Source: Candidatus Oscillochloris fontis
GTDB lineage: Bacteria; Chloroflexota; Chloroflexia; Chloroflexales; Chloroflexaceae
Direction of reading: 5' to 3'
DNA: 64,000 nucleotides
NCBI RefSeq assembly: GCF_004138135.1
Contig: NZ_RYFD01000009.1
Location: 43,158-107,157, forward strand
In this document: piece by piece, positions 23,293-63,457 of the stretch
How the letters are laid out: each line of letters begins with the position of its first letter
Position numbering within the stretch: the stretch's first letter is position 1
The notes under the pieces: generated by a model
What the model was told of the DNA's origin: nothing
The model's database searches: none
What the model saw: only the letters and a program-made list of their open reading frames with translations
Made by a program: the position numbers and the translations under genes

Positions 23293-23410
23293 CGTCTTGG
23301 GGCGTAGCCCCAAACCCTATTTTTTTGTGTTTTTTGGCGGCTTCGCCGCCAAAAAACACAAAAAAAGATCTTCGGGGGCGGTGTAGCCACCCCAAACCCC
23401 CACCGAATGT
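23293..23410. repeat. Palindromic repeat element, copy A
   Basis: Three hairpins in a row: CTTGGGGC-GTA-GCCCCAA near 23,297-23,314, the long hairpin 23,320-23,366, and GGGGCGG..CCACCCC near 23,375-23,394. The long hairpin has a 22-bp perfect stem with the core GGCGGC-TTC-GCCGCC and outer arm TTTTTTTGTGTTTTTT. It ends in a run of A on the top strand, so it could act as a terminator on either strand. See copies at 27,892, 33,771, 57,210, 60,603 and 63,366. Confidence 0.9.
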
Positions 23411-23446
23411 AGTGAAGGACAACATACCCTCCCTTCAGACAAAAAA

Positions 23447-23455
23447 TGATATAAT
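23447..23455 (+). promoter_or_regulatory. Extended -10 promoter for etfBA
   Basis: TGA-TATAAT, a textbook extended -10, lies 41 bases upstream of the etfB start and just after the repeat element. No matching -35 is seen. Confidence 0.55.
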
Positions 23456-23495
23456 GCACCGCGTCGGAGCAGGAGCAATCTAAGGAGATCACAGA

Positions 23496-24278
23496 ATGCA
23501 CATCGTTGTGTGTATGAAGCAGGTTCCCCGTGACAACTCGGTCAAGCTCAATGCTGACCTGAGCATCAATGCGGACGGCATCGAGAAGATTATCAACCTC
23601 TTTGATGAATATGCCGTCGAAGAGGGCATCACCTGGAACGAGAAGCATGGTGGGAAGTTGACGGTGCTCTCACTGGGCAACGCCGGCTGGACAGAACAGA
23701 TCCGTCGCGCCCTGGCGATGGGGGCCACCGATTCGCTGCTGCTCAGTGATCCGGCCTTCACCAATACCGATACGCTGGGTGCTGCGCGTGCCGTCGCTGC
23801 GGCGATTACCAAACTGGGCGATGTCGATCTCGTCATCACCGGGCGCAACAGCACCGATGATGAGAGCGGTGCCTTCGCCCCGGCGCTCGCCCGTCACCTC
23901 GGCTGGCCCCAGATCACCTATGTGGGGAAAATCCAAGATGTTGACCCGGCGGCCAAGTCCATCACTGCCGAGCGCAACCTAGAGACGGTGATCGAGACCG
24001 TGCAAAGCCCGCTACCCGCCGTCGTGAGTGTGATCAAGGATATTAACAGCCCGCGTTACCCCTCCCTCTTGAAGATCAAGCGCGTCGCCAAGATCGAGCC
24101 GCCCGTCTGGAGCGCCGCTGATCTGGGCCTCAGCGCTGCCGATCTCGCCCCGACTGCCGCCCTGAGCGCCCGCACCCCCGCCCCCGCTCGCCCCAATGGC
24201 GAGATGATTACCGGGGCCGATGCTGCCGCCAAGGTTGCCGCGCTGGTCAATAAGCTCCTGGAGAACCAGGTTATTTAG
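23496..24278 (+). CDS. etfB: Electron transfer flavoprotein beta subunit
   Basis: A 260-residue EtfB, the AMP-binding subunit of the ETF heterodimer that accepts electrons from acyl-CoA dehydrogenases. It begins MHIVVCMKQVPRDNSVKL, has the LSLGNAGW..RRALAMGATDSLLL stretch, the TGRNSTDDESGAFAPALARHLGWPQ signature and the DINSPRYPSLLKIKRVAK loop. AAGGAGA lies upstream of the ATG. It is followed by etfA after 30 bp with its own ribosome-binding site, so they are co-transcribed. The upstream acyl-CoA dehydrogenase is a likely partner. Confidence 0.96.
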   Translation: MHIVVCMKQVPRDNSVKLNADLSINADGIEKIINLFDEYAVEEGITWNEKHGGKLTVLSLGNAGWTEQIRRALAMGATDSLLLSDPAFTNTDTLGAARAVAAAITKLGDVDLVITGRNSTDDESGAFAPALARHLGWPQITYVGKIQDVDPAAKSITAERNLETVIETVQSPLPAVVSVIKDINSPRYPSLLKIKRVAKIEPPVWSAADLGLSAADLAPTAALSARTPAPARPNGEMITGADAAAKVAALVNKLLENQVI

Positions 24279-24308
24279 GACGCTGCGTGCGATCCAAGGG
24301 AGGATAGA

Positions 24309-25289
24309 ATGTCAGGCGTACTCGTATGTGTCGAGCAGGTAGGCGGCAAGATTGCCGCGATTACCCGTGAGTTACTCGGTAAGGGAAAGAGCCTCGCCGA
24401 TGCCCTGGGTGGCCCCCTCGCTGCGGTGGTGGTCGGTGGCGATACCGGTGATCTGGCGGCGCAGGCCGTCGCCCTGGGTGCCGATACGGTCTATGTCGTC
24501 AGTGATGCGTCCCTGGCCAGTTACACCACCGATGGCTATGTCGCAGCGGCGAAAGCCGTCGCCGCACAGGCTCAGCCCGCAGTGGTACTGGCCGGTGCCA
24601 GCTTCCAGATGCGCGACTTCGGTGCCGCCCTGGCTACCGATCTAAACGCGGGCCTCGCGGTTGATGCCACCGATATTACGGTTTCCGGTGGTCAGATCAG
24701 CGCCGTGCGCCCCTCGCACGGTGGTAATGTGATCAACACCCTCGCCTTCGCCGCCGGACGCCCGGTGGTGGTGCTGGCGCGCAAGCAGAGCTTCCCCGAA
24801 GCTGCCGAGCAAGCTGGGCGCAGCGGCAACATCCAGAATGTCGCCATGCCCGCCACCAGCATCCGCACCAAGGTGGTGAGTGTGGCCCCCAAGAGCGGCG
24901 CGGTCAACCTCGCCGACGCCACGATCATCGTCAGCGGCGGGCGCGGCCTGGGCAACAAGGACAACTACTTCAAGCTCATTCCGCCCCTCGCCGAAGCGCT
25001 CGGTGCCGCCTATGGTGCCTCGCGTGCCGTGGTTGATGATCACTGGGTGCCCTACGAGCATCAGGTCGGCCAGACGGGCAAGACGGTTAGCCCGAAGCTC
25101 TATGTAGCCTGCGGGATTAGCGGGGCCATTCAGCACCTCGCCGGGATGCGCACCTCGCGCTCGATTGTGGCGATCAACAAAGATCCCGACGCCCCGATCT
25201 TCCGCGTTGCCACGTATGGCCTCGTTGGGGACGTGAATGAGGTGTTGCCGTTGCTGACCGAGCAGCTCAAGGCGCGCCTGGGGCGGTAG
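24309..25289 (+). CDS. etfA: Electron transfer flavoprotein alpha subunit
   Basis: A 326-residue EtfA carrying the FAD. The N-terminal domain (1-190) has the family's Rossmann-like fold. The C-terminal FAD domain shows IIVSGGRGLGNKDNY, the YEHQVGQTGKTVSPKLYVACG block and GISGAIQHLAGMRTS. GGGAGGA precedes the ATG. It delivers electrons onward, usually to ETF:quinone oxidoreductase, which is not in the window. Imperfect palindromic tandem repeats begin about 17 bp after the stop. Confidence 0.96.
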   Translation: MSGVLVCVEQVGGKIAAITRELLGKGKSLADALGGPLAAVVVGGDTGDLAAQAVALGADTVYVVSDASLASYTTDGYVAAAKAVAAQAQPAVVLAGASFQMRDFGAALATDLNAGLAVDATDITVSGGQISAVRPSHGGNVINTLAFAAGRPVVVLARKQSFPEAAEQAGRSGNIQNVAMPATSIRTKVVSVAPKSGAVNLADATIIVSGGRGLGNKDNYFKLIPPLAEALGAAYGASRAVVDDHWVPYEHQVGQTGKTVSPKLYVACGISGAIQHLAGMRTSRSIVAINKDPDAPIFRVATYGLVGDVNEVLPLLTEQLKARLGR

Positions 25290-25305
25290 ATCTGCCCCGT
25301 TCTTT

Positions 25306-25558
25306 TCACCGCAAAGGACGCAGAGGGGCGCAGAGGATCGGATAAAACACCATCCTCTGCGCCCCTCCGCGTCCTCGGCGGTTAAACCTCGACCTCTGCG
25401 CCCCTCCGCGTCCTTTGCGGTTATATACCATCTACCACCGAGGAGACGACAGAAAAAGAATCCTCTGCGCCCCTCCGCGTCCTCGGCGGTTATATACCAT
25501 CTACCACCGAGGAGACGACAGAAAAAGAATCCTCTGCGCCCCTCCGCGTCCTCGGCGG
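25306..25558. repeat. ACCGC-GAGG repeat cluster with 69-bp tandem units
   Basis: The cluster opens with an inverted pair: ACCGCAAAGGACGCAGAGG.. near 25,308 and its near-complement ..CCTCCGCGTCCTCGGCGGT near 25,352-25,382. It continues with a unit that recurs exactly every 69 bp (starts 25,421 and 25,490, each opening TTATATACCATCTACCACCG). The tandem ends exactly at the stop codon of the glycosyltransferase gene. The motif is shared with the insertion at 11,436-11,697. No coding function is seen. Confidence 0.9.
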
Positions 25559-26812
25559 TTAACCCCCATACACCCCCTCCAAACGCGGGATGATCGCCTG
25601 CCAATCATACTGCGAGACCACATGCGCCCGCCCCGCCGCCCCCAACCTGCGCCCCAACTCCCGATCTGCGATCAGGCGTAGCGTGGCCGCCGCGAACGCC
25701 GCCGGGGTTGCCCCCAACAACAGGTGTTTCCCATCCTCTAGCCCGATGATGCCCTCGGCCCCCATCGGCGTACTCACCACCGGCGCAGCCAGTGCGAGCG
25801 CCTCCAACAGCTTGAGCCGCGAGCCACCCCCGATGCGCATCGGTACCACGTAGGCCGCCGCCGCCCCAATGGAGGGCCGCACGTCATCCACTTCACCCAC
25901 CACCACCACCGCGTCGCCATCGTGCAGCGCCCGCACCGCCGGCCCCGCCGCCCGCCCCACCACCACAAAACGCGCCGCTGGTTGCACGGCCCGAATGCGC
26001 GGGAGTACCTGCTGCACAAACCAGACCAGCGCGTCAATGTTGGGCCGGTAATCCAGCGTGGCCGTAAAGACCAGATCGCTTCCCCCCTCGCCTGTTCGCG
26101 CAGCGAACGGGCGAGGGAGGCCAGGGGGGGGAGGGTCATGCGGCGCAAAGTAACTCGTGTCCACCCCGTTGGGGATGACGTGCAGACTCGCCTGCGGTGC
26201 CAGCCGCGCCAGCGCCGCCTGATCCTCCGCCGACACCACCAACACCCGGTCATAGTCGCGCACCACGCGCCGCTCGTAGGCCACCAGTTTACGCCACTGC
26301 ACCAGCGAGTAGACTCCGCCCAGCAACGCCCGTGGCGTGCCCGCCACACCGCGCCGTAGGTCACTCAGCGCCGCCCGCCGCTGCAACAGGTACTCGGCAT
26401 TAAACTGATCCAGGCTGATCAGCGGCACCCCGAATTGGCGCGCCAACAGACCATAATCGGCCATCTCCAGGCTGGCCGCGTGAACCAGATCGAAACGCTC
26501 GGCGGCCAACAACCGACTCAGCGCCTCGCGGTAGGCCGGGGCGGCGTTGCGCAACGCCAGATCGGGCAGTCGGCTGGTAAGCGTCGCCCTAGCGCGCTGC
26601 GCGAGGCTGCGCGGCGGCGGTCCGATCACCGTTGCGAGGCGGCAATGCGCCCGCATGGGGGCCAGCGCCACCACCGCCGCCGCGTCGGAGGCAAAACTGA
26701 GACACGTGATGTCATGATGCTGAGCCAAGCCCCGCAGCAGGTTCCAGATACGCAACGCCCCGCCACCCCGTGGCGGATAGGCCGGGTAGGGCGAGAGAAA
26801 GAGGATCTTCAT
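25559..26812 (-). CDS. Glycosyltransferase family 4-like protein
   Basis: A 417-residue GT-B enzyme. The N-terminal acceptor domain opens MKILFLSPYPAYPPRGGGALR with the Gly-rich loop. The donor domain has FTATLDYRPNIDAL and the nucleotide-sugar motif GGGSRLKLLEALALAAPVVSTPMGAEGI with the E-x7-E-like arrangement. It transfers a sugar from a nucleotide donor to an unknown acceptor, plausibly in exopolysaccharide or cell-surface glycan synthesis. It follows the C39-like peptidase gene by 9 bp on the same strand, so the two are probably co-transcribed. Confidence 0.9.
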   Translation of the reverse strand: MKILFLSPYPAYPPRGGGALRIWNLLRGLAQHHDITCLSFASDAAAVVALAPMRAHCRLATVIGPPPRSLAQRARATLTSRLPDLALRNAAPAYREALSRLLAAERFDLVHAASLEMADYGLLARQFGVPLISLDQFNAEYLLQRRAALSDLRRGVAGTPRALLGGVYSLVQWRKLVAYERRVVRDYDRVLVVSAEDQAALARLAPQASLHVIPNGVDTSYFAPHDPPPPGLPRPFAARTGEGGSDLVFTATLDYRPNIDALVWFVQQVLPRIRAVQPAARFVVVGRAAGPAVRALHDGDAVVVVGEVDDVRPSIGAAAAYVVPMRIGGGSRLKLLEALALAAPVVSTPMGAEGIIGLEDGKHLLLGATPAAFAAATLRLIADRELGRRLGAAGRAHVVSQYDWQAIIPRLEGVYGG

Positions 26813-26821
26813 ACGGCACTT

Positions 26822-27877
26822 TCAAAACCAAGCATCATCCGCGCCAGGGGCAGGTCGGGGATGATCGGGCGGATAGACCAGATAGACTGCTCCCGCCGAG
26901 TTGTTCTGCCAACAGGCCACAAACTGATCCGCTGGGTAGCGCCAGATGCTCTGCGCCATATCCCGGCTGGCCGGTTCTGCCACCGTGACCGCATCAGCAT
27001 CCACGCCGATCAGCAGCGTGAGATGCCCGGCAGTCGCTCCCACCGCTCCTTCAAGCTCACCCTCCCGCCACGCAACGCTACAGACCACCGGAACCCCCGC
27101 CTGTACCCAGCGCGCCACTTGGTTCAGGCTGTGCAGTCGGGTGACATAGGCAAACAGCCCCAGGCTGGCCGCATAGGCGGTGTTGAAGACCCAGTTGCCG
27201 GTGCCCTCCCAGGCCGGATCATAGATCATCGGCACAAGCAGATCGGGTACACACGCAGGGGTGGTGAAGGCGGCCAAGCGCGGATCATCCAGGTGTGTGC
27301 GCCAATAGGCCAGACACATCCCCAGCGCCGTTGGGCTACACCAGCCCTCACCGTCGGGGAAACTGAGATACTGCGAGATGAGCAGCGGCATGGCGAGGGG
27401 CGACGGCCACACCTCCGGGGCCGGTGCTGCCGCCGCTGCGTCGCTGTTACAACTCACACACAAGGTCAGCAGATCGAGGTGCGGCAGCGCAACACCCGTC
27501 GGCGCACACAGCAATACCCGCACCTGGAGCGCATCAGCGGGAATGTTGAGCAAGAGCGTATCGGTCGCTATACACCCGATCTCATCCTGCTGGCTAGCAA
27601 AACTAGTCCGGCGGCTCGCTTCGGGTGCGGCATCCCAAGTGGCCACCCGATAGAACTTCGACCAGCCCTGCACCGTATGGGCGCGAAGCTGAATTTCGAT
27701 CCAACTCCCAGTGGGTGTCGTGGCCCCCCAAGATGGAACGACCTCAGTCACCGCCGCAAGCGCCTCAACCGGCCCCAGCAAGGCTTGCTGGCACGCCGGG
27801 TCATCACCAGCCAGCACCGCTTCATGCTGCCAGGTAGCCATTTGGGGAACCGTATAGGCGATCAGGCAATGGTTCAT
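26822..27877 (-). CDS. C39-like cysteine peptidase family protein
   Basis: A 351-residue protein. Residues 1-145 form an N-terminal beta-rich domain of unknown role. Residues about 165-340 match the peptidase C39-like fold: GEGWCSPTALGMCLAYW supplies Cys180, ATAGHLTLLIGVD supplies His285, followed by EPAS. No signal peptide is evident. I chose the ATG at 27,877; upstream in-frame codons simply translate the palindromic repeat in the leader. The ribosome-binding site is weak (AAAGAA). A perfect 21-bp hairpin (27,892-27,936) sits only 14 nt upstream of the start and would be part of the mRNA leader if transcription begins before it. Substrate unknown. Confidence 0.8.
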   Translation of the reverse strand: MNHCLIAYTVPQMATWQHEAVLAGDDPACQQALLGPVEALAAVTEVVPSWGATTPTGSWIEIQLRAHTVQGWSKFYRVATWDAAPEASRRTSFASQQDEIGCIATDTLLLNIPADALQVRVLLCAPTGVALPHLDLLTLCVSCNSDAAAAAPAPEVWPSPLAMPLLISQYLSFPDGEGWCSPTALGMCLAYWRTHLDDPRLAAFTTPACVPDLLVPMIYDPAWEGTGNWVFNTAYAASLGLFAYVTRLHSLNQVARWVQAGVPVVCSVAWREGELEGAVGATAGHLTLLIGVDADAVTVAEPASRDMAQSIWRYPADQFVACWQNNSAGAVYLVYPPDHPRPAPGADDAWF

Positions 27878-27891
27878 GGTTCTTTTTGTGG

Positions 27892-27972
27892 TTTTTGTGG
27901 TGTTTTGGCGGCTTCGCCGCCAAAACACCACAAAAAAAGATCTCGGGGGCGGCTGTGCCGCCCCCGAACGCC
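27892..27972. repeat. Palindromic repeat element, copy B
   Basis: The long hairpin has arms 27,892-27,912 and 27,916-27,936, core GGCGGC-TTC-GCCGCC and outer arm TTTTTGTGGTGTTTT, all paired. It is followed by GATCTCGGGGGCGGC-TGT-GCCGCCCCCGA. Compared with copy A, the GTG of the outer arm is GTGGTG here, compensated on the other arm. It lies between glnA and the C39-like gene. Confidence 0.9.
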
Positions 27973-29310
27973 CTAAAAGATCGGCAAATAGCGCTCTAAC
28001 TCCCACTGCGACACATAGGAACGGTAACTCTCCCACTCCAACTGCTTCGCATCCACAAAACGCTCATAGACATTCGGCCCAATCGCGGCCTGAATGACCT
28101 CATCTTCGCGCAGCGCATCCAGCGCCGCACCGAGCGAACTGGGCAACATCGCCAGCCCCCGCGCCCGTGGATCGATGTGAAAGAGATCCTCTTCGGCTGC
28201 TTCACGCAGCGACAACTTGCGCTTGATGCCATCAAGCCCCGCCGCCAGCATCACCGCATAGGCCAAGTAGGGGTTACACGAAGGATCGGGGCAGCGCAAC
28301 TCAATCCGGGTACTCTGGTTGCGCCCGTTGGTGATCCGTGGCACCCGCACCAACGCCGAACGGTTCGTGCGTCCCCACGAGATATAGATCGGTGCCTCAA
28401 ACCCCGGCACCAGCCGCTTGTAGGAGTTGACCAGCGGTGCCAGAATGACACACATCCCGCGTGCATGCGCCAGCAACCCGGCGATAAAGTGGCGCGCAAT
28501 CGGAGACAGCCCATATGGATCGTCAGGGTCGAAAAAGACATTCTGCCCCGTCGCCAGATCGACCAGACTCTGATGGACATGCATACCATTCCCATTCACC
28601 GTCGCCAACGGCTTGGGCATAAAGGTCGCATACAGGCCATTAATCTGCGCGATAGCCTTCAGCGCCACCCGCGCCGTAACGGTATGATCGGCAGCCCGCA
28701 GCGCCTCGGTCACCCGCAGATCAATCTCGTGCTGCCCGGCGGCCACTTCGTGGTGCGCCGCCTCAGTGACGATCCCCATCCCGCGTAGTGCCCGCACCAT
28801 CTGGCGTCGAATGAGCGTTGCTTGATCAGTCGAGACATCAAAATAGCTCGCGTTATCATGCGGCAACGGCGTCGTCTGCTGCACACCATCACGGTGGAAG
28901 AGAAAGAACTCCAACTCCGGTGCCACATGAAAGCCATAGCCCAACTCCGCCGCCTGCCCCAATACCGAGGTGAGCACATGGCGCGGATCAGCCGTAAAGG
29001 GCGTCCCATCAGGGGTGTAGATATTACAGATGAACCGGGCGGTCGAAAGCCCGGCATGCTGATCCCAAGGAATGAGCGAATAGGTGCTCGGATCGGGCAC
29101 CAGATACATATCGCTCTCGACCATCCGCGCAAAACCCTCAATCGAGGACCCATCAAACCAGACCCCATGATCAAGCGCATCGGGCAACTCCTCAATCGGA
29201 ATCGTCACAGTCTTGACCATACCAAGAATATCGGTGAACTGGAGGTTGATAAACGCAACACTCTGTTCTTTTACTCGCTCAAGCAGTTCCTGGCGGGTAG
29301 TATCGCTCAT
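27973..29310 (-). CDS. glnA: Glutamine synthetase type I
   Basis: A 445-residue ATP-dependent enzyme joining ammonia to glutamate. It shows the N-terminal beta-grasp (NLQFTDILGMVKTV), WFDGSSIEGFARM, the metal-site strand APELEFFLF, NGNGMHVHQS and PGFEAPIYISWGRTNRSALVRVP. Length and organisation fit the GSI-alpha type of about 445 residues, as in Firmicutes. GSI-alpha enzymes normally lack the adenylylation tyrosine and are regulated by feedback or partner proteins. AGAGGAG lies about 10 nt before the ATG. Confidence 0.96.
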   Translation of the reverse strand: MSDTTRQELLERVKEQSVAFINLQFTDILGMVKTVTIPIEELPDALDHGVWFDGSSIEGFARMVESDMYLVPDPSTYSLIPWDQHAGLSTARFICNIYTPDGTPFTADPRHVLTSVLGQAAELGYGFHVAPELEFFLFHRDGVQQTTPLPHDNASYFDVSTDQATLIRRQMVRALRGMGIVTEAAHHEVAAGQHEIDLRVTEALRAADHTVTARVALKAIAQINGLYATFMPKPLATVNGNGMHVHQSLVDLATGQNVFFDPDDPYGLSPIARHFIAGLLAHARGMCVILAPLVNSYKRLVPGFEAPIYISWGRTNRSALVRVPRITNGRNQSTRIELRCPDPSCNPYLAYAVMLAAGLDGIKRKLSLREAAEEDLFHIDPRARGLAMLPSSLGAALDALREDEVIQAAIGPNVYERFVDAKQLEWESYRSYVSQWELERYLPIF

Positions 29311-29358
29311 GAGGTGGCACTCCTCTGGGTAAGTGGTTTTCTGGGTATTTCAGCCAGT

Positions 29359-30930
29359 TTAGCGTTTAGGCTTCGCAATCGAAACCCGCACCTGCTTGCC
29401 GCGCATGCTCACCCCATTCAGGATGTGCAGCACCTTCTGGGCATGTTCGTTAGGCACCTCCACGAAGGAGAAGCGGTCATAGATATCAATACTGCCAATG
29501 CTCTTACCCGAGAGGCCCACTTCATTGGCAATCGCGCCCACAATATCGGAGGGACGGATCCGGTCGAAGCGGCCCACATCAAGGAAGAGGCGCTGCATGC
29601 CCGGCTCAGAGCCAGCCGCGTCACCCTCAACACTGGTAATCGTATCATCCTGTTCCACCTCGTTGAGCAACAACTTAAAGGCCGCAGCGGCCAGATCAAC
29701 CGCATCATGCTCCTCAGACATCTCCTCAACCATGAGGAGGTACGGGTCAAGATCGCCCTGTTCCAACACCTCACGCAGCGCATCGCGGAACGCCTCACGG
29801 CGGCGCGCCGCCACATCGGCCAGCGAGGGCAACTTCTGGCGCTGAATGCGGGATCGGCTGGCACGCTCAATAATCTGGAGCATACGCCGCTCACGCGGGG
29901 TGATCAGCGTGATCGCCAACCCAGTGCGCCCAGCCCGCCCGGTACGCCCGATGCGATGCACATACGCCTCTGGGTCGTTGGGCACATCATAGTTGATCAC
30001 ATGGGTGACATCGGGAATATCCAACCCACGCGCCGCAACATCGGTAGCCACCAACAACTCGGCCTGGCCCTCGCGGAAGCGCTTCATCACCCGGTCACGC
30101 TGGGCTTGGCTCAAATCGCCGTGCAGCACCTCAGAAAGATAGCCACGCCCTTGCAGGCTCTCACCAAGTGCATCAGCCTCGCTGCGGGTACGGCAGAAGA
30201 TGATCGCCGAACTGGGCGTCTCCACATCCAGAATGCGGCACAAGGCATCAAGCTTCTCACGCGGCATCACTTCGTAGTAGGTCTGCCGAGTACGCGGTGT
30301 CGCAAGTTGTTCAGCCGCAATACTGATGCGCTTGGCATCCCTGGTATAACGCTGCACCAAGCCCTGCACCGCCTCCGGCATCGTCGCCGAAAAGAGCGCT
30401 GTCTGCCGTGTCTGAGGGGTCTGTTGTAAGATAAACTCAATATCCTCAACAAAACCCATATCGAGCATCTCATCGGCTTCGTCCAGCACCACCGTCGAGA
30501 TCTGATCCAGCACCAACGTACCACGCCGCATATGATCCATAATCCGACCCGGCGTGCCAACGACCACCTGCACGCCCTGTTCGAGCGCTCGGAGCTGACG
30601 ATAGATCGGCTGTCCACCATACACTGGCGCGACACTAATCCGCCGACCCTTGCCATATTTATAGATTGCCTCGGCCACCTGCATCGCCAACTCGCGGGTC
30701 GGAGCCAGAATCAGCGCCTGCGGCACCCGCTCATCACGCAACCGTTGGACAATCGGCAGCGCAAAGGCCGCCGTCTTACCGGTGCCGGTCTGCGCTTGAG
30801 CAATCACATCACTATTCAAGAGCATTACCGGAATGGCCTGCTCCTGAATAGGGGTCGGTTCATCATAGCCAAGATCCTTAAGTACATTCAGGATGGGTTC
30901 ACTTAGGCCAAGTTCACTAAAGGTGGGCAT
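29359..30930 (-). CDS. deaD: DEAD-box RNA helicase
   Basis: A 523-residue ATP-dependent RNA helicase of the CsdA/DeaD type. Motifs in order: Q motif (EPTPIQEQAIP), AQTGTGKT (I), PTRELA (Ia), TPGR (Ib), DEAD (II), SAT (III), then ATDVAARGLDIPDV and HRIGRTGRAGRTG (IV-VI). After a helical region (about 370-440), residues about 445-520 form a DbpA-like RNA-binding domain (RLFLDVGRFDRIRPSDIVGAIANE). The role is likely rRNA maturation or mRNA unwinding at low temperature. Its 5' leader is about 65-70 nt long if the extended -10 at 31,000 is used. Confidence 0.94.
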   Translation of the reverse strand: MPTFSELGLSEPILNVLKDLGYDEPTPIQEQAIPVMLLNSDVIAQAQTGTGKTAAFALPIVQRLRDERVPQALILAPTRELAMQVAEAIYKYGKGRRISVAPVYGGQPIYRQLRALEQGVQVVVGTPGRIMDHMRRGTLVLDQISTVVLDEADEMLDMGFVEDIEFILQQTPQTRQTALFSATMPEAVQGLVQRYTRDAKRISIAAEQLATPRTRQTYYEVMPREKLDALCRILDVETPSSAIIFCRTRSEADALGESLQGRGYLSEVLHGDLSQAQRDRVMKRFREGQAELLVATDVAARGLDIPDVTHVINYDVPNDPEAYVHRIGRTGRAGRTGLAITLITPRERRMLQIIERASRSRIQRQKLPSLADVAARRREAFRDALREVLEQGDLDPYLLMVEEMSEEHDAVDLAAAAFKLLLNEVEQDDTITSVEGDAAGSEPGMQRLFLDVGRFDRIRPSDIVGAIANEVGLSGKSIGSIDIYDRFSFVEVPNEHAQKVLHILNGVSMRGKQVRVSIAKPKR

Positions 30931-31008: not shown

Positions 31009-31048
31009 CTTGCGGTTAGCGCAGCCGCTAGGGTACGGCACGATAGTC

Positions 31049-31152
31049 AGGGCATGTGCAACCTTCGGTGGAGGTTCGAGGGCGACTTCACCGCCAAAAC
31101 ACAACAAAAATTGGGGTTTGAGGCGAAGCCCCAACAACGTTGCCCATGCCCT
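31049..31152. mobile_element. About 100-bp MITE-like element with 13-bp terminal inverted repeats
   Basis: The ends AGGGCATGTGCAA and TTGCCCATGCCCT are inverted copies with one mismatch. Inside are a decayed form of the core hairpin (GGCGACTTCACCGCC), one arm of the outer stem (AAAACACAACAAAAA) and TTGGGG..GCCCCAA. A second element with perfect ends lies at 46,283-46,383. The rest of the gap 30,931-31,270 holds only the promoter candidates described separately. Confidence 0.7.
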
Positions 31153-31226
31153 CGCACATGCACAAGAAGAATCAACAGAGCATAATATCTTGTGGTATGC
31201 TTGATGACAGTATAAAGGAACCCGCT

Positions 31227-33732: not shown

Positions 33733-33857
33733 CACCTCCGGTGGAGTTTGAGACTACGCCCCAGAGCCTCTTTTCTCTGATGTTGGCGGCGAAGCCGCCA
33801 ACATCAGAGAAAAAAAGTTCTTCGGGGGCGGCTTCGCATCTCCCCAACCCCCGCCGG
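33733..33857. repeat. Palindromic repeat element, copy D
   Basis: Starts CACCTCCGGTGGAG. The long hairpin has arms 33,771-33,790 and 33,794-33,813, core GGCGGC-GAA-GCCGCC and outer arm TTTTCTCTGATGTT, perfectly paired though unrelated to copy A's outer arm. It is followed by TTCTTCGGGGGCGGC. The loop GAA is the complement of the TTC seen in copies A and B. Confidence 0.9.
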
Positions 33858-46070: not shown

Positions 46071-46282
46071 GAGCGACCCCTTTCTGCGAGCCAGTGTAGG
46101 AGACACCTAAGTAATGACGTTTCCCGTTTGATCACGCTACTACTATAGACGGTAGATAGGCGTAATCTCAAGGTTGTAAGATTACAGTCGGATTACACGG
46201 GAAACAGGGGGTTATGAGGTGTCTACGTTTAGGCATTGTACACCGTGCCCTATTCTGAGTCAACGTAGGTGCGCAGCCGCCC

Positions 46283-46383
46283 AGGGCATGGGCAACGTCA
46301 CCTCCGGTGGAGGGTTGGGGGCGGCTGCGCCGCCTCCGAAAATCATTTTTGGTGCGCAGCCCCAAGGGCTTTGCCCATGCCCT
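46283..46383. mobile_element. 101-bp MITE-like element with perfect 13-bp ends
   Basis: The terminal inverted repeats AGGGCATGGGCAA and TTGCCCATGCCCT are perfect. The interior holds CACCTCCGGTGGAGG, GGGGGCGGC-TGC-GCCGCCTCCGA and CAGCCCCAAGGGC. It lies in the divergent gap between the beta-helix gene and the hybrid kinase gene. Its partner is at 31,049-31,152. The remaining sequence of the gap 46,071-46,463 shows only the promoter below. Confidence 0.75.
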
Positions 46384-46422
46384 ACGCAACCGCCGTTTGC
46401 GTCTCGACCCCGTTGGATAACG

Positions 46423-56986: not shown

Positions 56987-56995
56987 ATAGGAGAC

Positions 56996-57119
56996 CTCAT
57001 CTTCCAGCTTGCGCTGACGGAGTTTGCACCGTTCGGATCAATGCATAACTTCGACACGTGGCATTGATACGTGGTTGCCGGGGCTTCGCTGGGCCGTTCC
57101 CTCCGCCCCTCTGGATGAG
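56996..57119 (-). ncRNA. SAM-I riboswitch aptamer upstream of metH
   Basis: Read leftward from 57,119: CTCATC (P1 5' strand), AGAGGGGCGGAGGGAACGGC, CCAGCGAAGCCCCGGCAACC, a P3 stem (ATCAATGC with GCATTGAT), then GGTGC..CTCC, and GATGAG closing P1 at 56,996. These are the conserved core segments of the SAM-I (S-box) aptamer. With the downstream terminator, high SAM should stop transcription before metH. Confidence 0.92.
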
Positions 57120-57155
57120 CACTATCCATTGTTAGCAGCCATTTCTGGCGGGCAG

Positions 57156-57184: not shown

Positions 57185-57189
57185 CGTTA

Positions 57190-57198
57190 TGCGATAAT
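57190..57198 (+). promoter_or_regulatory. Extended -10 promoter for the crotonase gene
   Basis: TGC-GATAAT lies just beyond the metH -35 on the opposite strand, so the two promoters are divergent and closely packed. Transcripts from here would contain the palindromic element before the crotonase start. Confidence 0.4.
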
Positions 57199-57209
57199 AG
57201 GAGGGATAA

Positions 57210-57300
57210 TTTTGTTGATGTTTGGCGGCTACGCCGCCAAACATCAACAAAAAAAGATCTTTGGGGGCGGCTTCGCCGCCCCCAACCCCCCATTGGAGAT
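57210..57300. repeat. Palindromic repeat element, copy H
   Basis: The long hairpin has arms 57,210-57,229 and 57,233-57,252, core GGCGGC-TAC-GCCGCC and outer arm TTTTGTTGATGTTT, fully paired. GATCTTTGGGGGCGGC-TTC-GCCGCCCCCAA follows. The element lies in the 5' leader of the crotonase gene. Confidence 0.9.
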
Positions 57301-57338
57301 GGGATTGGTACCGCTTCATCTACAAGGAAGTACTATCA

Positions 57339-58115
57339 ATGAGCGAAGAACCACTGGTATTGGTTGACGTGCGTGGCGCCGTGGCCACCCTCACCCTGAA
57401 CCGCCCCAAGGCGCTGAACGCCCTGAGTCCAGAACTGATGGATGAGTTGGTGGCGGCGATTGCCCAGTGTGATGCCGATGAGGCGATCCGGGTGCTGATT
57501 CTGACCGGCGGGCCGAAGGCATTTGCGGCGGGTGCTGACATCAAGGCGATGAGCCAATCAACACCGATGAAGATGTTGACCAGTGAAATTATCGCCAAGT
57601 GGGATCGGGTACGCGATTGCCGTAAGCCGATCATTGCGGCGGTATCAGGTTATGCGCTGGGCGGCGGCTGTGAGTTGGCGATGATGTGCGACATCATTAT
57701 TGCCAGTGACACGGCCAAGTTCGGGCAGCCAGAGATCACCATCGGGGTCATTCCGGGGGCGGGCGGCACCCAGCGCCTGACGCGGGCCATCGGGCCATAC
57801 CGAGCGATGGAACTGATCCTCACCGGCGATATGATCTCGGCCCAGGAGGCGGCCAGTTATGGTCTGGTAAGCCGCGTCTACCCGGCGGAAGAACTGATGG
57901 CGGCGGCGCAGGCGATGGCCGAGAAGATCGCCGCGAGGCCGCCGCTGGCGGTGCGGATGGCCAAGGATGCCGTGCGCTATGCTGCCGAGACGACCGTGCG
58001 TGAGGGGTTGGAGATCGAGAAGCGCAACTTCTACCTGCTCTTCGATACCTACGATCAGAAAGAGGGCATGGCCGCCTTTGCCGAGAAGCGCAAGCCGGAG
58101 TTTCGCGGCGAATAG
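57339..58115 (+). CDS. Enoyl-CoA hydratase (crotonase family)
   Basis: A 258-residue crotonase, the usual length. The oxyanion-hole segment KAFAAGADIKAM and the YALGGGCELAMMCD block are present. The two catalytic Glu residues of hydratases are seen in GGCELAMMCD and FGQPEITIGVIPGAGGTQRL, so true 2-enoyl-CoA hydration is likely. AAGGAAG precedes the ATG at 57,339 by 8 nt; longer frames translate the palindromic repeat. It could act with the acyl-CoA dehydrogenase and ETF encoded at 22,039-25,289, though it is not linked to them. Confidence 0.93.
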   Translation: MSEEPLVLVDVRGAVATLTLNRPKALNALSPELMDELVAAIAQCDADEAIRVLILTGGPKAFAAGADIKAMSQSTPMKMLTSEIIAKWDRVRDCRKPIIAAVSGYALGGGCELAMMCDIIIASDTAKFGQPEITIGVIPGAGGTQRLTRAIGPYRAMELILTGDMISAQEAASYGLVSRVYPAEELMAAAQAMAEKIAARPPLAVRMAKDAVRYAAETTVREGLEIEKRNFYLLFDTYDQKEGMAAFAEKRKPEFRGE

Positions 58116-58172
58116 AGACGCCATCAAGTAGAGACGCAAAATATTGCGTCTCTACTTGATGGCGTCTCTATT
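58111..58172. terminator. 29-bp perfect hairpin shared by two convergent genes
   Basis: The arms 58,111-58,139 and 58,144-58,172 are perfectly complementary with loop AATA. The hairpin contains both stop codons: GAATAG ends the crotonase gene on the top strand and the YqhA-like gene on the bottom strand. Each arm holds TAGAGACGC twice. It can serve as a bidirectional terminator. Confidence 0.85.
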
Positions 58173-58638
58173 CTTTGGCCTTCTTCTTCAAACTGAGGAA
58201 ATAGGACAAGGCCGCGATCACCAGCGCCGCCGCACCGCCGTGGTTGAGCAGATCGCGGGTGCCATCCCAGGCGATCACCTGGCCCAAGAAGAGAACCCCC
58301 AAAACCACGATCACCACCCCGATCAGTTTCTCCTTGAGATCGTCAAGGTCGTGGATGATGAGCCACGGTGGAAGTGGGAGGTCATCATCAATAAAGAGTT
58401 CGTAGAGGCCAATCGCGATCACATAGAGGACGGTGGCGAGGAGGAAGAGGTCTACCAATTCGATGGCCGAGAGCAGCAGCGTCTTGGCACCTTTGGAACT
58501 GACCTCTTCTTCAAAGGCATGCATGATGATCTGGAAGGACTCGATGGCTCCATAGACCATGAGCGCGGTACCAGCGATAAAGATGCAGATACTAGGGATG
58601 AGGGCGATGTAGCGTGTGGCCGCTAGAAAGCGCCGCAT
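58168..58638 (-). CDS. YqhA/UPF0114 family membrane protein
   Basis: A 156-residue protein with about four hydrophobic segments (IALIPSICIFIAGTALMVYG, LVDLFLLATVLYVIAIGLYE, LIGVVIVVLGVLFLGQVIAW and AALVIAALSYFLSL) and the conserved LPPWLIIHDLDDLKEKL between the second and third. This matches the UPF0114 (YqhA) family, whose function is not established. The start at 58,638 is chosen because AAAGGAA lies 7 nt upstream. The stop is embedded in the shared hairpin. Confidence 0.85.
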   Translation of the reverse strand: MRRFLAATRYIALIPSICIFIAGTALMVYGAIESFQIIMHAFEEEVSSKGAKTLLLSAIELVDLFLLATVLYVIAIGLYELFIDDDLPLPPWLIIHDLDDLKEKLIGVVIVVLGVLFLGQVIAWDGTRDLLNHGGAAALVIAALSYFLSLKKKAKE

Positions 58639-58705
58639 AGGTTGTTCCTTTTGATAAAGAGATGATGCGCGGGTGAGTCTACGCAAACGTGGGCGGATTG
58701 TCAAC

Positions 58706-59545
58706 CTACCCCAACCCCACCAACTGGCTACTCACCTCCCACAACTTCTGCTGCACCGCCACATTATTGGCCTCGTTCAAGGCGCGTTGGGGGCGCTGAT
58801 CCGCAAAGTACTTGCCACTGATCCCCTCCACTTCGGGCGAACTCGCCAGGTAGATCGAGGTCTGTGCGCCCTGTTCGGGGGTGATGAAGAAGGGCCGTGC
58901 CAGATTGAAGATAAACTGGAAGATACCCTCCGAACCAGTCGCAAAGTTGGTGTTTACCACCCCAGGGTGCAGGCTGTTCGAGGTGATGCCGCTGCCCGCC
59001 ATGCGCCGCGCCAACTCGTTGCTGAAGAGGATATTGGCCAGCTTCGAGTCGCTGTAGGCGCGGAAGCCGATATAGCCACGGGTGGCCTGAAGATCGTTGA
59101 AGCGGATATGTCCGGGTATGTGCGCTGACGAAGAGACATTCACGACCCGCGCCGGAGCAGCCGCACGCAGGGCATCGAGCAGCAGGTTGGTGAGCAGGAA
59201 CGGGGCCAGGTGGTTGACCGCGAAGGTCAGTTCGTAGCCGTCATGGCTGAGGGTGCGCTGATCAACAAACAGCCCGGCATTGTTGACTAGGACGTGCAGC
59301 CGATCATGGCGGGCGAGGAACTCGGCTACGCCGCGCCGTACCGAGTCGAGCGCGGCAAAATCGGCGATAATCAACTCGACCTGATTGTTGCCACTCTGGG
59401 CGATGATCTCGGCGCGGGCGGCCTCGGCCTTGCTGCGGTTGCGACACATCATCACCACCGTCGCACCTTTACGTGCCAGTTCGAGCGCCGTTACCTTGCC
59501 GATCCCTGAATTTGCACCCGTGACCATGACAATCTTACCGATCAC
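58706..59545 (-). CDS. Short-chain dehydrogenase/reductase
   Basis: A 279-residue NAD(P)-dependent SDR of the retinol-dehydrogenase/protochlorophyllide-reductase-like branch. TGANSGIG (9-16) binds the cofactor; CRNRSK after the second strand suggests NADP(H). NNAG, the NVSSSAH strand with the catalytic Ser and YSDSKLAN with the catalytic Tyr-x3-Lys are intact. The start is GTG with AAAGGAC upstream. The substrate is unknown. Proximity to the chlorophyll-synthase-like gene is suggestive, but the genes are divergent. Confidence 0.9.
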   Translation of the reverse strand: MIGKIVMVTGANSGIGKVTALELARKGATVVMMCRNRSKAEAARAEIIAQSGNNQVELIIADFAALDSVRRGVAEFLARHDRLHVLVNNAGLFVDQRTLSHDGYELTFAVNHLAPFLLTNLLLDALRAAAPARVVNVSSSAHIPGHIRFNDLQATRGYIGFRAYSDSKLANILFSNELARRMAGSGITSNSLHPGVVNTNFATGSEGIFQFIFNLARPFFITPEQGAQTSIYLASSPEVEGISGKYFADQRPQRALNEANNVAVQQKLWEVSSQLVGLG

Positions 59546-59576
59546 TGTGGGGCGTCCTTTCGTTTATTATGACCCA

Positions 59577-59648
59577 GTAGGGGCGAAGCATCGCTCCTAG
59601 CCTTGTTACTAATCCCTGACCACATCGCGGGCGATGCTTCGCCCCTAC
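59577..59648. repeat. Inverted repeat in divergent promoter region
   Basis: GTAGGGGCGAAGCATCGC (59,577-59,594) and its exact complement (59,631-59,648) are 36 bp apart between the divergent SDR and UbiA genes. The same GGGCGAAGCATCGC sequence occurs in the cluster at 49,241-49,475, so this is a dispersed palindrome rather than a gene-specific operator. Confidence 0.8.
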
Positions 59649-59668
59649 GTGTTGGAAGAAAAACCGCT

Positions 59669-60598
59669 ATGCAGCACACAGCCACATCCAAGCCCGCGTT
59701 CAGCACCCAACTCCAGGCCCATTTAGAACTGGCCGACCCGATTACCTGGGTGGCCGCAATTGCCATGGTCTTTTGTGGTGCCCTGGCCTCTAGCCAAGGC
59801 ACGCCGGGTTTTGATCCCACCAACCTCAACCACCTGCTCTTGGCCGGGTTGGCCGCGCTGATGTGTGGGCCACTCGGAACCGGGTTTAGCCAGAGTATTA
59901 ACGACTACTACGACTATGAGCTGGATGCGATCAATGATCCGGGCCGCCCCATCCCCTCTGGGCGCTTGAGTCTGGCAGCCGCTCGCGCCAACTGGATCAT
60001 CTTGGGCCTGAGCACCATGCTGATCGGGATCTTCTTGGCACGTTACAGCCTCTGGATTCCCATCTTCGCCCTGATCAGCCTGATTCTCTCCGTCCTCTAC
60101 AGTATGCCACCGATTAAGCTCAAACAGAACTTCTGGTTTGGCCCACCGGCGGTGGGGGTAGGCTACATCCTGCTGACCTGGCTGGTGGGACATATGCTCT
60201 TTGGGCCCCTCACATGGCCGAGTGTGATTTTGGCGCTGATCAATAGTGCGCTGGCGGCGGGGTTGCTCTTCCTCAATGATATTAAGAGTGTTGAGGGGGA
60301 TCGTCAACTGGGCTTGAAGTCGTTGACAGTGGCGTTGGGGGTACGCCAAACCTTGGTGGTAGCGTATACGATTATTGATCTCTGCTTGGTGGCGATGCTG
60401 GTGCTGGCATTGATCGGCGGCTACGTGTGGGCGGCTGGCTTTGTGGCCTTGGCGTTAGTCGCGCCCATCCCGTTCCAGATCCGGCTCTTCCGTGAACCCA
60501 ATCACACCAACTTCAAGTATTTTCTGTTGGTCAATAATCCGTTTGTGTTACTGCTGGAGATCTTTTCGGCCTTTATTGTGGGGGGGTATTTTGGGTAG
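59669..60598 (+). CDS. UbiA-family (bacterio)chlorophyll synthase-like prenyltransferase
   Basis: A 309-residue polytopic membrane protein with 8-9 hydrophobic segments. The first Asp-rich motif is NDYYDYELDAINDPGRPIPS, very close to the NDxxDxxxDAINEPxRPIPSGR of chlorophyll and bacteriochlorophyll synthases. The second conserved site is LLFLNDIKSVEGDRQLGLKS, also diagnostic for the ChlG/BchG/BchK branch. It attaches a polyprenyl alcohol to a (bacterio)chlorophyllide. I cannot decide from sequence whether it is BchG (BChl a) or BchK (BChl c). The ATG at 59,669 has GGAAGAAA upstream; earlier in-frame codons lie in the repeat. Confidence 0.88.
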   Translation: MQHTATSKPAFSTQLQAHLELADPITWVAAIAMVFCGALASSQGTPGFDPTNLNHLLLAGLAALMCGPLGTGFSQSINDYYDYELDAINDPGRPIPSGRLSLAAARANWIILGLSTMLIGIFLARYSLWIPIFALISLILSVLYSMPPIKLKQNFWFGPPAVGVGYILLTWLVGHMLFGPLTWPSVILALINSALAAGLLFLNDIKSVEGDRQLGLKSLTVALGVRQTLVVAYTIIDLCLVAMLVLALIGGYVWAAGFVALALVAPIPFQIRLFREPNHTNFKYFLLVNNPFVLLLEIFSAFIVGGYFG

Positions 60599-60602
60599 GG
60601 TA

Positions 60603-60690
60603 TGTTGCGGTATTTTTGGCGGCTACGCCGCCAAAAATACCGCAACAAGAGAGATTCTTGTGGGGGCCTGCGGCCCCCGCAGCCCCCGCT
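60603..60690. repeat. Palindromic repeat element, copy I
   Basis: The long hairpin has arms 60,603-60,623 and 60,627-60,647, core GGCGGC-TAC-GCCGCC and outer arm TGTTGCGGTATTTTT, perfectly paired. A second hairpin GGGGGCC-TGC-GGCCCCC follows. Lying between convergent genes, it can act as terminator for both. Confidence 0.9.
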
Positions 60691-60694
60691 AGGG

Positions 60695-61051
60695 TTAATT
60701 ACGCTCAGGAATCTTGGGCATGAGCGGGCCACGGCGACGATGGCACGTCAGATAGACCAGTGGCCCCATGGTGCAGCGCAGGGCGCGCACCCGTCCGGCG
60801 GGCACCACAGCCGCCATACCAGTGCGCAGGACGGTGGTCTGGTTATCCACAAACAGCTTACAGGTTCCCTGAATGACGACAAACAACACATCCAATTCTT
60901 CATTGGTGTGTTGAGGAATGCTCGCACCTTCGCTGAGGTGGAGCAGATTGACATTTAACTGCTCGCTATTGATACTCGTTGCCGGCCCGTTGTGCTGAAC
61001 TCGTTGCAGCACATCTCCGATGTTAATGATCAATTCTGCCGGAAGACCCAT
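60695..61051 (-). CDS. Small cupin-domain protein
   Basis: A 118-residue single-domain cupin. Motif 1 resembles G..IPQHTNEELDVLFVVIQG and motif 2 GMAAVVPAGRVRALRC. The usual metal-binding set is only partly present (one His and Glu in motif 1, none clear in motif 2), so a catalytic role is doubtful; a sensor or binding role is possible. GAGGTG sits about 6 nt before the ATG at 61,051. Function unknown. Confidence 0.8.
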   Translation of the reverse strand: MGLPAELIINIGDVLQRVQHNGPATSINSEQLNVNLLHLSEGASIPQHTNEELDVLFVVIQGTCKLFVDNQTTVLRTGMAAVVPAGRVRALRCTMGPLVYLTCHRRRGPLMPKIPERN

Positions 61052-61158
61052 GGCTCGCACCTCGTCATTCTTGCATCTACGCACAGACTGGCCTGGACAT
61101 ATTCGCGTTATCCGTCACAACTCCAGGATGATACTGATTGTAGCATGATTGGGGCGGT

Positions 61159-63303
61159 TCACATTCCACGGACGACCAAAATCCGCTTGCCCGCCTCTTC
61201 CCACTCCTGGATCACAAACCCCTGGCATCCCGTTGTTCCTGGTACCGCTGCCAGCGTGGGGAGATTGACGGGTAAGTCGTGGGTGTCCACAAAAAGGTAG
61301 GGACCAACACGGGTGATCGCATTGAATCGCCCTGGGCGCCGATCCACCTGGATCAGGCGTTGCGCTTCAGCGGGTGGCATGGGTTGGGCGGCGAGAACGA
61401 AGAGGTAAGGGATGGCAATCGTATCATAACTAACCCACACCTCGTCGTAGTTTGCGGCCAGATTGACCGCCCGTTGCAGCGTTTCTGCTAACCCATCTTG
61501 GTTAAGTTGGGCCTGGATGCGCGGGTACTCCTGGGTGTAGGCATTCCACCAGATGCCCCACTGCCACAGCAACCCGACGGCCAACACGAGGCTTACCCCG
61601 TACTGAAGCAGCGGGCGGCGCTGCTGCCAGAGCCACGCCGCCCCATAGCCGACCAGTAGGGCATAGATCGGGGCCATCGGTGCGCCCCGGTAGCTGTGCG
61701 GGCTGGGTGTGGTGACGCTGGAGGGGAACGGGGCGATCAGGATGGTGCCCAGGATGAAGAGGGGGATGAATCTATATGTATCCAGGTAAGGAATATCGCG
61801 TAGGGGCGCGTCGCGACGCACCCCTACCCATGCCACATTGCGCTTCATTACCATCACCAGACCGATCAACACGAGGGGCAGACCCGCCCAGAGTTCCGCG
61901 CCAAACCCTGGGACGCTCATCAACGAGCTTCCATCGCTGGTACGGTAGTAGAAATCGGGCTGGAAGTAGACCACATACCCCGCCCACCATGCCCGAATCC
62001 ATTCGCTGGCTGAATCGGCGCGTAGCGCAGCTTGACCGAGGCGCGTGGAACTGGCCGGGTTGAAGAGCGTGACGTGGATAAAGGGTGCCCAGAGGAGCGC
62101 CAAGAGGAACCCCGCCGGGAGCCATGCGCGGATTACCTGGCCTAGATGGGGGCGTGCGGGGCTGCGCCACCATGCGAAGAGCGCCAGCAGGATCACCAGC
62201 GCCACCAAAAATGGCGCGGCCATCTTGAGGGTGGGGTAGGTGTAGAGCGCGAACCCGGCGGCAAGGGCCAACCATATGGCGGTGCGGCGGTCGCGAACAT
62301 GGATGAAGTGAACCCCGGCGAGCATGGTAAGCGTCCAGAAGGTCGGCACGAGCGCAGGCGGCAAGGCGGTGCGACTGATCGTGATCTGCCAGGGCGAGAG
62401 CGCCATCATCAAGCCAGTGGTGATCGCCCCGGCCCGCCCCATGCCCAGCCGCTGCGCCAGCGCATAGCCGAGGGGGGCGGCGAGCGCCCCCACGACCGCC
62501 GTCACCCCACGCCCAACGAGGCGCTGTGGGCCAAAGAGCGCCACAAAGGGCAACTCCAGGTAGGTCAACAGCGGCGCGATCCAGTCGCCCAGCGCCTCGA
62601 AGGCTCCCAACGGCCAGGCGTGGCCCAAATGATCGCGCCCGGTTTGGGCGAGGCTCCAGGCATCCACCAGACTCACGACTTCATCAATCCGCCAGCCGGG
62701 GGGGGTGTGGCCGAGGCCGATGATGCGCGGCAGCAAGGCAAGGCCGGTGAGCAGCAGCGGGGCCGCCCAACCACACCGGATGCTCCAATCGAGGATGAGG
62801 GCCGCCGCGAAGACCACGGGGAACAGGAGGAGACCTAGGCGAATAGAATCGAGTGGCAGGCCACTAGGGATCGCCCACAGATCGTAGAGTACCACCCCCA
62901 ACCAGCGCGGGTCGTTGCCGGGGGGACGAGCCACGCTGGTGTGAAGATACAGCGCACTGGTGTCTGGGGGGAGCAGCAGGTGATAGTGGCGCATCTCGGC
63001 GGGTGGGCTGAGGTGCGCCAAGGTGCTACTGGTTGCCAGTAGCAGTTCGGGGGCAGGTCGCTCCGGCCAACGCGGGGCGGCCAAGCGTAGATGCAGTTGG
63101 GTCGGGCCGCTGTGGCGGGTGATGGGGATGATGATTTGATCGCCACTCCAACGGTAGGTGCTGGTAGCTACCTGTTCAGCCGCATACAGCCCGCTCACGG
63201 TATCGAAGCTCACGGCGGGACGGTTCAGCATGAAGCCGCAACCAATCAGCCAGAGGCAGAGGGCGAGGATGAGCAGAACGGAGCGTTGGTATGTCTGTCG
63301 CAT
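61159..63303 (-). CDS. ArnT/PMT-like membrane glycosyltransferase (GT-C fold)
   Basis: A 714-residue polytopic protein. A signal-anchor (about 8-28), an extracytoplasmic beta-rich region (30-150) and about ten further hydrophobic segments (160-610) precede a soluble C-terminal tail. PPGWRIDEVVSLVDAW near residue 205 contains the luminal Asp-Glu typical of GT39/GT83 transferases that use lipid-linked sugars, and ALSPWQITISRTALPPAL is another family-like block. Residues VGVRRDAPLR in the middle are encoded by an intergenic-type palindrome (61,801-61,826) inserted in frame. The ATG at 63,303 has a weak ribosome-binding site. Substrate unknown. Confidence 0.8.
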   Translation of the reverse strand: MRQTYQRSVLLILALCLWLIGCGFMLNRPAVSFDTVSGLYAAEQVATSTYRWSGDQIIIPITRHSGPTQLHLRLAAPRWPERPAPELLLATSSTLAHLSPPAEMRHYHLLLPPDTSALYLHTSVARPPGNDPRWLGVVLYDLWAIPSGLPLDSIRLGLLLFPVVFAAALILDWSIRCGWAAPLLLTGLALLPRIIGLGHTPPGWRIDEVVSLVDAWSLAQTGRDHLGHAWPLGAFEALGDWIAPLLTYLELPFVALFGPQRLVGRGVTAVVGALAAPLGYALAQRLGMGRAGAITTGLMMALSPWQITISRTALPPALVPTFWTLTMLAGVHFIHVRDRRTAIWLALAAGFALYTYPTLKMAAPFLVALVILLALFAWWRSPARPHLGQVIRAWLPAGFLLALLWAPFIHVTLFNPASSTRLGQAALRADSASEWIRAWWAGYVVYFQPDFYYRTSDGSSLMSVPGFGAELWAGLPLVLIGLVMVMKRNVAWVGVRRDAPLRDIPYLDTYRFIPLFILGTILIAPFPSSVTTPSPHSYRGAPMAPIYALLVGYGAAWLWQQRRPLLQYGVSLVLAVGLLWQWGIWWNAYTQEYPRIQAQLNQDGLAETLQRAVNLAANYDEVWVSYDTIAIPYLFVLAAQPMPPAEAQRLIQVDRRPGRFNAITRVGPYLFVDTHDLPVNLPTLAAVPGTTGCQGFVIQEWEEAGKRILVVRGM
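61801..61826. repeat. REP palindrome inside a coding sequence
   Basis: TAGGGG-GCGTCGCGACGC-CCCCTA type palindrome (one mismatched pair), nearly identical to the intergenic ones at 11,830-11,929. It is read through in frame by the membrane glycosyltransferase gene. Confidence 0.85.
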
Positions 63304-63338
63304 TGGGTAGTGTTGGGTGCTTGTCGCGGTTGATGAGT

Positions 63339-63457
63339 CCTTGGGGCTGAAGCCCCAAACCCCAGTTTTTTGTGTTTTTTGGCGGCTACGCCGCCAAAAA
63401 ACACAAAAAAAGATCTTCGGGGGCGGCGCAGCCGCCCCCAAACCCCCACCGGAGGTG
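63339..63457. repeat. Palindromic repeat element, copy J
   Basis: The fullest copy: CTTGGGGC-TGA-AGCCCCAA, the long hairpin with arms 63,366-63,386 and 63,390-63,410 (core GGCGGC-TAC-GCCGCC, outer arm TTTTTTGTGTTTTTT), GGGGGCGGC-GCA-GCCGCCCCC, and closing CCCCCACCGGAGGTGG. The outer arm matches copy A, but the loop is TAC rather than TTC. Confidence 0.9.

Follow-up and report, generated by a model that had tools for sequence, protein, structure and literature searches.

Hairpins built on the core GGCGGC-NNN-GCCGCC are dispersed through the genome of Candidatus Oscillochloris fontis (G000), and six of them lie in the 64,000 nt of that genome analysed here, referred to as the window. Template switching during DNA replication probably keeps the arms of this dispersed palindromic family complementary to each other and sometimes flips the loop between them. 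An earlier note on this DNA had reported six copies sharing the core, in each of which the opposite arm is an exact complement. All six are found where they were reported, and all are perfect inverted repeats with a loop of 3 nt. With up to two mismatches allowed, there are 41 core matches in the window against a shuffle mean of 10.8.

Arm pairing and loop orientation across the genome

A scan of the 4.46-Mb genome gives 399 exact cores, compared with 9 matches to the reversed control pattern. Arm pairing was assessed in a sample of 847,679 bases that includes the window (19% of the genome), from which cores at 40 bases or less from the end of a stretch were excluded. This sample is not random, as contig C1 was taken whole and the other stretches were picked for cores or element matches that were already listed. 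The sampled cores were selected by the core alone, however, with arm pairing ignored. A total of 142 exact cores were found, divided into 96 of type A, which is the type described in the earlier note, and 46 of a G-rich type B, which usually adjoins type A across a AGATCTTC-like linker. A genome in which most copies have unpaired outer arms, which the earlier note had named as the outcome that would speak against it, is not what is found in this sample: in 84 of the 96 type A hairpins the outer pairing extends over 12 or more pairs with zero mismatches. These 84 include 47 different 12-nt arms. In the remaining 12 the paired run is 0 to 11 long; these appear to be cores arising by chance, truncated half-hairpins, and a small number of hairpins whose arms contain mismatches. 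The hairpins of the family sit mostly outside genes.

The claim that outer arms differ between copies while their pairing is kept is supported by a tolerant scan, requiring at least 9 of 12 outer pairs, that yields 95 members. Within these copies there are 6 mismatches in 1,140 outer cells, whereas 36% of positions mismatch when the left arm of one copy is set against the right arm of another copy. Changes to the core itself are compensated doubles in six of these members and single changes in three. The arms were also considered as hypervariable sequences. This idea was dropped, as the 37 oriented copies (of 57) that retain both flanking hairpins have arm diversities of 0.20 and 0.18, barely above the 0.17 of the left backbone.

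The core is not confined to this genome. Of the six genomes of the genus, four have it in abundance: besides G000, the same pattern scan counts 132 in G002, 226 in G003, and 242 in G005, against 27 in G001 and 16 in G004. It is also common in another genus of the same family (298 in G016 and 472 in G027), with the remaining 53 of 61 genomes having 0 to 109 cores each.

The loops are restricted in sequence. In G000, GNA or its complement TNC accounts for 80 of 86 type A and 41 of 46 type B loops, where random loops would give 12.5%. The loops TTC, GAA, and TAC described previously are indeed those of the six window copies; the range in the sample is wider than these three. Triloops of long hairpins are GNA or TNC in 46 of 85 cases in G003 and in 33 of 69 in G005. 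Both loop orientations are found against the fixed element backbone. Orientation was set by hairpin B, the type B hairpin that adjoins hairpin A, so that 57 copies could be oriented, with 27 of the 84 hairpins having no hairpin B in reach. The oriented copies have the loops TTC (16) and GAA (13), TAC (13) and GTA (4), TGC (5) and GCA (3), and others (3). Even 12 copies with an identical 12-nt arm carry four different loops: TTC in four, GAA in five, TGC in two, and GTA in one. GNA triloops are known for a special stability in DNA. A strand-specific stability of these loops was rejected as an explanation, since a DNA energy model gives an equal value on both strands.

Orthologous hairpins in two sister species

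Arm changes are coupled in register between the sister species G003 and G005. Three syntenic blocks were compared, of 760,000 bases in G003 and 754,395 bases in G005, over most of which the two are roughly 80–90% identical. There are 59 near-perfect hairpins inside spanning alignments, 31 of them comparable. Pairs with gaps (20) and those unpaired in the first species (16) were set aside, leaving 669 counted pairs. While 535 of these are unchanged, 44 have been altered on both sides and still form a Watson-Crick pair, against 4.4 expected if the two sides were independent. Pairs changed on both sides make up 60 of 685 in register, compared with 13–22 of 564–657 when one arm is slid by 1–4 positions. 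Among single changes there are 25 G.T and 19 A.C, a comparison that says little because the strands are pooled.

Of the 31 comparable hairpins, 15 have triloops, and five of these are exact reverse complements between the species, five are the same, and five are otherwise different. Were changed loops random, the probability of at least five exact inversions among the ten changed loops would be P = 2.4e-7. One of eight tetraloops is inverted. The cleanest case is the hairpin at G003:C95:243824 and G005:C40:246086, in which both of the two arm changes are compensated and the loop has gone from TTT to AAA, between flanks that are 93% identical over 60 bases on each side. In two added blocks, one of seven hairpins is alignable and its loop is flipped. 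Both arms change in concert in the heptamer-array hairpins at G003:C106:296151 and G003:C95:71741.

Heptamer-like units in tandem, among them GATTGCA and GAATGCT, make up the hairpins at G003:C95:240391, 302527, and 71741, and at G003:C106:296151 and 84816. At several of these sites the two sister species have different units, and the difference extends to both arms. Around the orthologues of window genes, 20 stretches of G001–G005 contain three hairpins with the core or a one-base variant of it, all in G002.

Origin of the matched arms and flipped loops

The earlier note had left a choice between strong selection for the structure and regeneration of one arm on the pattern of its partner, through hairpin-templated repair or a REP-type (repetitive extragenic palindromic) transposase. 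The coupled arm changes and loop inversions favour copying; the transposase reading is not supported. Template switching is preferred to selection for RNA because the latter cannot easily flip a loop and the former can. Replication template switching would be the agent, with the polymerase taking either the partner arm or the opposite strand as its template and both arms changing together as a result. A point change in one arm would then be either erased or copied into the opposite arm. If the switch is intramolecular, one arm would be rewritten to match the other with the loop untouched, which may account for the unflipped double changes. An intermolecular switch, copying the opposite strand across the hairpin, would turn the loop round.

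Compensatory evolution is an unlikely source of these patterns by comparison. Here the hairpin would be selected as RNA, whether as a terminator, a processing site, or a stability element, with mutations in one arm later matched in the other. The perfect stems and the double changes in core and arms are those expected of it, and the 79 one-sided differences between the sister species could be its intermediates. Perfect stems of unrelated sequence also share an orthologous site in cases such as G003:C95:240391, a hint that a hairpin may be favoured at certain positions. Point changes matched between the arms do not, however, turn a loop into its exact reverse complement, and a path of point mutations from TTC to GAA is hard because intermediate loops are rare, with 6 of 86 type A loops in G000 falling outside GNA and TNC. 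Nor is there a preference for gene ends, as 39 type A contexts comprise 16 tandem, 13 divergent, 8 convergent, and 2 edge positions. Densities per intergenic kb, from a purpose-built simple gene caller, are 0.56 for tandem, 0.84 for divergent, and 0.46 for convergent. A cruder scan of open reading frames (ORFs) places the 84 hairpins as 13 tandem, 10 divergent, 10 convergent, 32 in gaps of more than 800, 12 at edges, and 7 inside ORFs. A role as intrinsic terminators was considered on two grounds and is supported by neither. At least four T in the 7 nt after the stem, on either strand, are present in only 20 of 84, and 13 of 39 lie between divergent genes, where density is highest, rather than at 3' gene ends. 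Selection by itself does not explain the flipped loops; it may act as an additional force.

Ectopic gene conversion, in which another dispersed copy overwrites the whole hairpin in either orientation, would swap arms and flip loops in a single step. The core is present in 399 copies and a palindromic hairpin permits both orientations, yet this is slightly more doubtful again as a general account. A search with the 35-base centre of the hairpin at G003:C95:243824, allowing up to three mismatches, finds no other copy in G003 or G005. For five of six other orthologous hairpins (all but 57043) there is no second exact copy of the arm, in a search covering 760 and 754 kb, or about an eighth of each genome. 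Furthermore, conversion spreads perfect arms and does not create perfection.

It is highly improbable that these are REP elements mobilised by a TnpA(REP)/RAYT Y1 transposase acting on single-stranded hairpins. They are high-copy palindromes and mostly extragenic, as REP elements are, and one RAYT-like Y1 ORF is present in the genome. The search for such a transposase that the earlier note had proposed nevertheless gives this single Y1 match only, adjoining a different repeat of the GGGGCGCGATGCTTCGCCCC type, with part of the flank masked. The tetranucleotide GTAG is present within 8 nt of the foot in 3 of 84 hairpins, where 2.8% are expected from random draws, and CGTC in 1 of 84 (2.7% expected). 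Y1 counts do not track core counts across the 61 genomes; G003 has 226 cores and no Y1 match, while G012 has 24 cores and 11 Y1 matches. The complete form of the element has terminal inverted repeats (TIRs) and duplications of ~10 bp, which single-strand Y1 transposition is not expected to leave. The Y1 ORF itself encodes 173 aa and is RAYT-like; together with the adjoining copies of that different, REP-like repeat it occupies L031:11234-11755 and the sequence upstream. There is an equally slim chance that the perfect arms and flipped loops are only apparent, produced when inverted repeats caused a polymerase or an assembler to switch template. Template switching is known as a source of error in the polymerase chain reaction. 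Such an artefact would not account for distinct arms at different sites, or for different perfect arms at the orthologous sites of two species, and hairpins of 43–53 bases are shorter than ordinary reads.

Several observations weigh against template switching or restrict it. Of the 59 hairpins in the sister species, 28 are unalignable at less than 62% identity, whether through replacement, absence from the other species, or poor alignment. In the 31 that are comparable, one-sided changes (79) exceed compensated changes (44), and 11 more pairs have changed on both sides into a non-pair. The 15 triloop hairpins alone show 42 single against 31 compensated changes, with 6 both-sided changes that do not pair. 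The alignable hairpin of the added blocks has four single-sided changes and one non-pairing double change, and the G002 hairpin at the site of window copy 1 carries mismatches. Arms and loops were taken from genome assemblies, not reads. Loop flips and arm changes in multi-copy hairpins could come from conversion by an oppositely oriented copy. The changes come from a pairwise comparison of two species, and the evidence points to no one polymerase or strand.

Element structure, window features, and significance

Alignment of copies reveals three small hairpins in a row, to which complete copies add a 17-bp TIR, CAGGGCATG(T/G)GCAAAGT. The sequence AGGGCATGNGCAAAGT is present in the genome 65 + 72 times and its reversed control 0 times. 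The sample holds 34 TIR pairs; 24 measure 150–153 bp, and 23 of these 24 full-length pairs (~151 bp) hold one of the 84 hairpins. Only 23 of the 84 hairpins therefore lie within a complete TIR-bounded element, and none of the six in the window do so. Flanking duplications were sought with the length free between 5 and 12 and the ends movable by 1; exact duplications of 9–12 bp are associated with 9 of the 34 TIR pairs, with one mismatch in 10 more.

Bacterial miniature inverted-repeat transposable elements (MITEs) are short, with TIRs and flanking duplications. Judged by its sequence, the complete ~151-bp form has this anatomy, being likewise short, with TIRs and duplications, and without any coding capacity seen. 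It would then be a non-autonomous transposon that spread the hairpins by means of a transposase. It differs from known MITEs in that an autonomous partner was not found, the ISAs1 domain PF13808 being the only transposase marker searched for in this respect, with 0 matches in G000. This marker was chosen for the CAGGG end of the element, which we take to be similar to the ends of ISAs1. At the variable position of the TIR, the two sides are unmatched in 10 of 31 pairs, the sides being ~50–180 bases apart. If three over-long pairings are kept, 13 of 34 are unmatched, against ~18 of 34 expected with independent sides. The poorer matching of these far-apart TIR sides, at this one site, fits the prediction of a copying process that is short in range.

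Table 1. Locations of hairpins and TIR-bounded relatives in the window.
Feature	Coordinates	Strand	Description
Small hairpin h0 flanking copy 1, part of composite	23297..23313	.	TTGGGGC-GTA-GCCCCAA
Hairpin A copy 1	23320..23366	.	perfect stem 22 bp, TTC loop
Degenerate hairpin B adjoining copy 1	23374..23394	.	
Hairpin A copy 2	27892..27936	.	perfect stem 21 bp, TTC loop
Hairpin B adjoining copy 2	27942..27968	.	GGGGGCGGC-TGT-GCCGCCCCC
TIR pair of same family without perfect hairpin A, 106 bp	31048..31153	.	no duplication found
Hairpin A copy 3	33771..33813	.	perfect stem 20 bp, GAA loop
TIR-bounded relative without perfect hairpin A, 103 bp	46282..46384	.	flanking duplication 9/10 matching
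Hairpin A copy 4	57210..57252	.	perfect stem 20 bp, TAC loop
Hairpin B adjoining copy 4	57261..57285	.	TTC loop
Hairpin A copy 5	60603..60647	.	perfect stem 21 bp, TAC loop; without usual hairpin B linker alongside
h0 hairpin left of copy 6	63341..63358	.	TTGGGGC-TGAA-GCCCCAA
Hairpin A copy 6	63366..63410	.	perfect stem 21 bp, TAC loop
Hairpin B right of copy 6	63419..63439	.	GCA loop

Copy 4 is placed between an S-adenosylmethionine (SAM) riboswitch and the next gene. The riboswitch (RF00162, 69.9 bits) is at 56994-57121 of the window on the - strand, upstream of a methionine synthase gene. Copy 3 is beside a cobalamin adenosyltransferase gene, where G003 and G005 carry two other long hairpins (G003:C24:48223-48350 and the counterpart on G005:C44) with the cores GCGAGC-GAA and GCCAGC-GAA, the arm changes of which are coupled. 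A second palindrome family, GTAGAGACGCAA-NNNN-TTGCGTCTCTAC, is present at 58110-58173 of the window and in the stretches L023, L025, L029, L034, and L036, with one window copy extended to a perfect 30-bp stem. The window also contains a very large array of clustered regularly interspaced short palindromic repeats (CRISPR) at 50-11734, which has 155 copies (152 exact and 3 with one mismatch) of the 37-bp repeat GTGCTTAGATCCGCCCCGAAATGAAGGGGTTTGAAAC, mostly spaced near 74 bp. No cas genes were identified among the four neighbouring proteins, which were the only ones looked at.

Processes of this kind have been described in other systems. Template switching is reported to create and maintain hairpins (Monttinen and Loytynoja 2022, PMC8794818), with perfect stems, several compensatory changes at once, and loop inversion, all of which are seen in the present family. 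Those cases are RNA genes, whereas here there is a mostly intergenic DNA repeat family for which no RNA function was found. Inverted repeats in yeast show homogenisation of their arms and inversion of the spacer, including ttc to gaa (Abraham and Hazkani-Covo 2021, PMC8604942). This is the same footprint with the same ttc/gaa spacers, although in short repeats within single yeast genes, as opposed to a high-copy bacterial family with stems of ~20 bp. The flips are attributed by those authors to an intermolecular switch, and their introduction refers to repeated template switching inferred for non-coding inverted repeats of proteobacteria. Quasipalindrome correction in E. coli, in which a template switch makes an imperfect inverted repeat more perfect (PMC7202029), was followed at one site in a laboratory reporter, while the changes here are natural, at many sites, and over species divergence. 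The REP elements and bacterial interspersed mosaic elements (BIMEs) associated with TnpA(REP) are likewise high-copy extragenic palindromes, often in composite arrays (PMC3733652, PMC8266576). The present family is unlike them in its chance-level tags, its long variable stems, its two-way loops, and the TIRs and duplications of its complete form.

The mechanism belongs to a known kind. What looks new is a bacterial repeat family, dispersed, high in copy number, and mostly intergenic, whose matched arms and flipped loops can be followed side by side across the divergence of species, and no prior description of such a hairpin family in this bacterial group was found in the limited collection of literature searched. 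A tentative extension, falling somewhat short of probable, is that these hairpins are self-healing. Once formed they would need no selection, as template switching would erase or mirror mutations and flip the loop, so that the hairpin would outlast the decayed transposon and intergenic covariation would be a by-product of DNA copying.

Compensatory change serves as the best evidence for a real RNA structure. Across the dozens of stems sampled in this naturally occurring bacterial family, covariation is accompanied by flipped loops and may therefore stem from DNA replication rather than from selection. Checking for loop inversions first is suggested as a filter in covariation-based RNA discovery. 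If template switching is the cause, the loop would be a built-in recorder in which each flip marks one template switch, and the rate and strand of template switching would be measurable in natural genomes.

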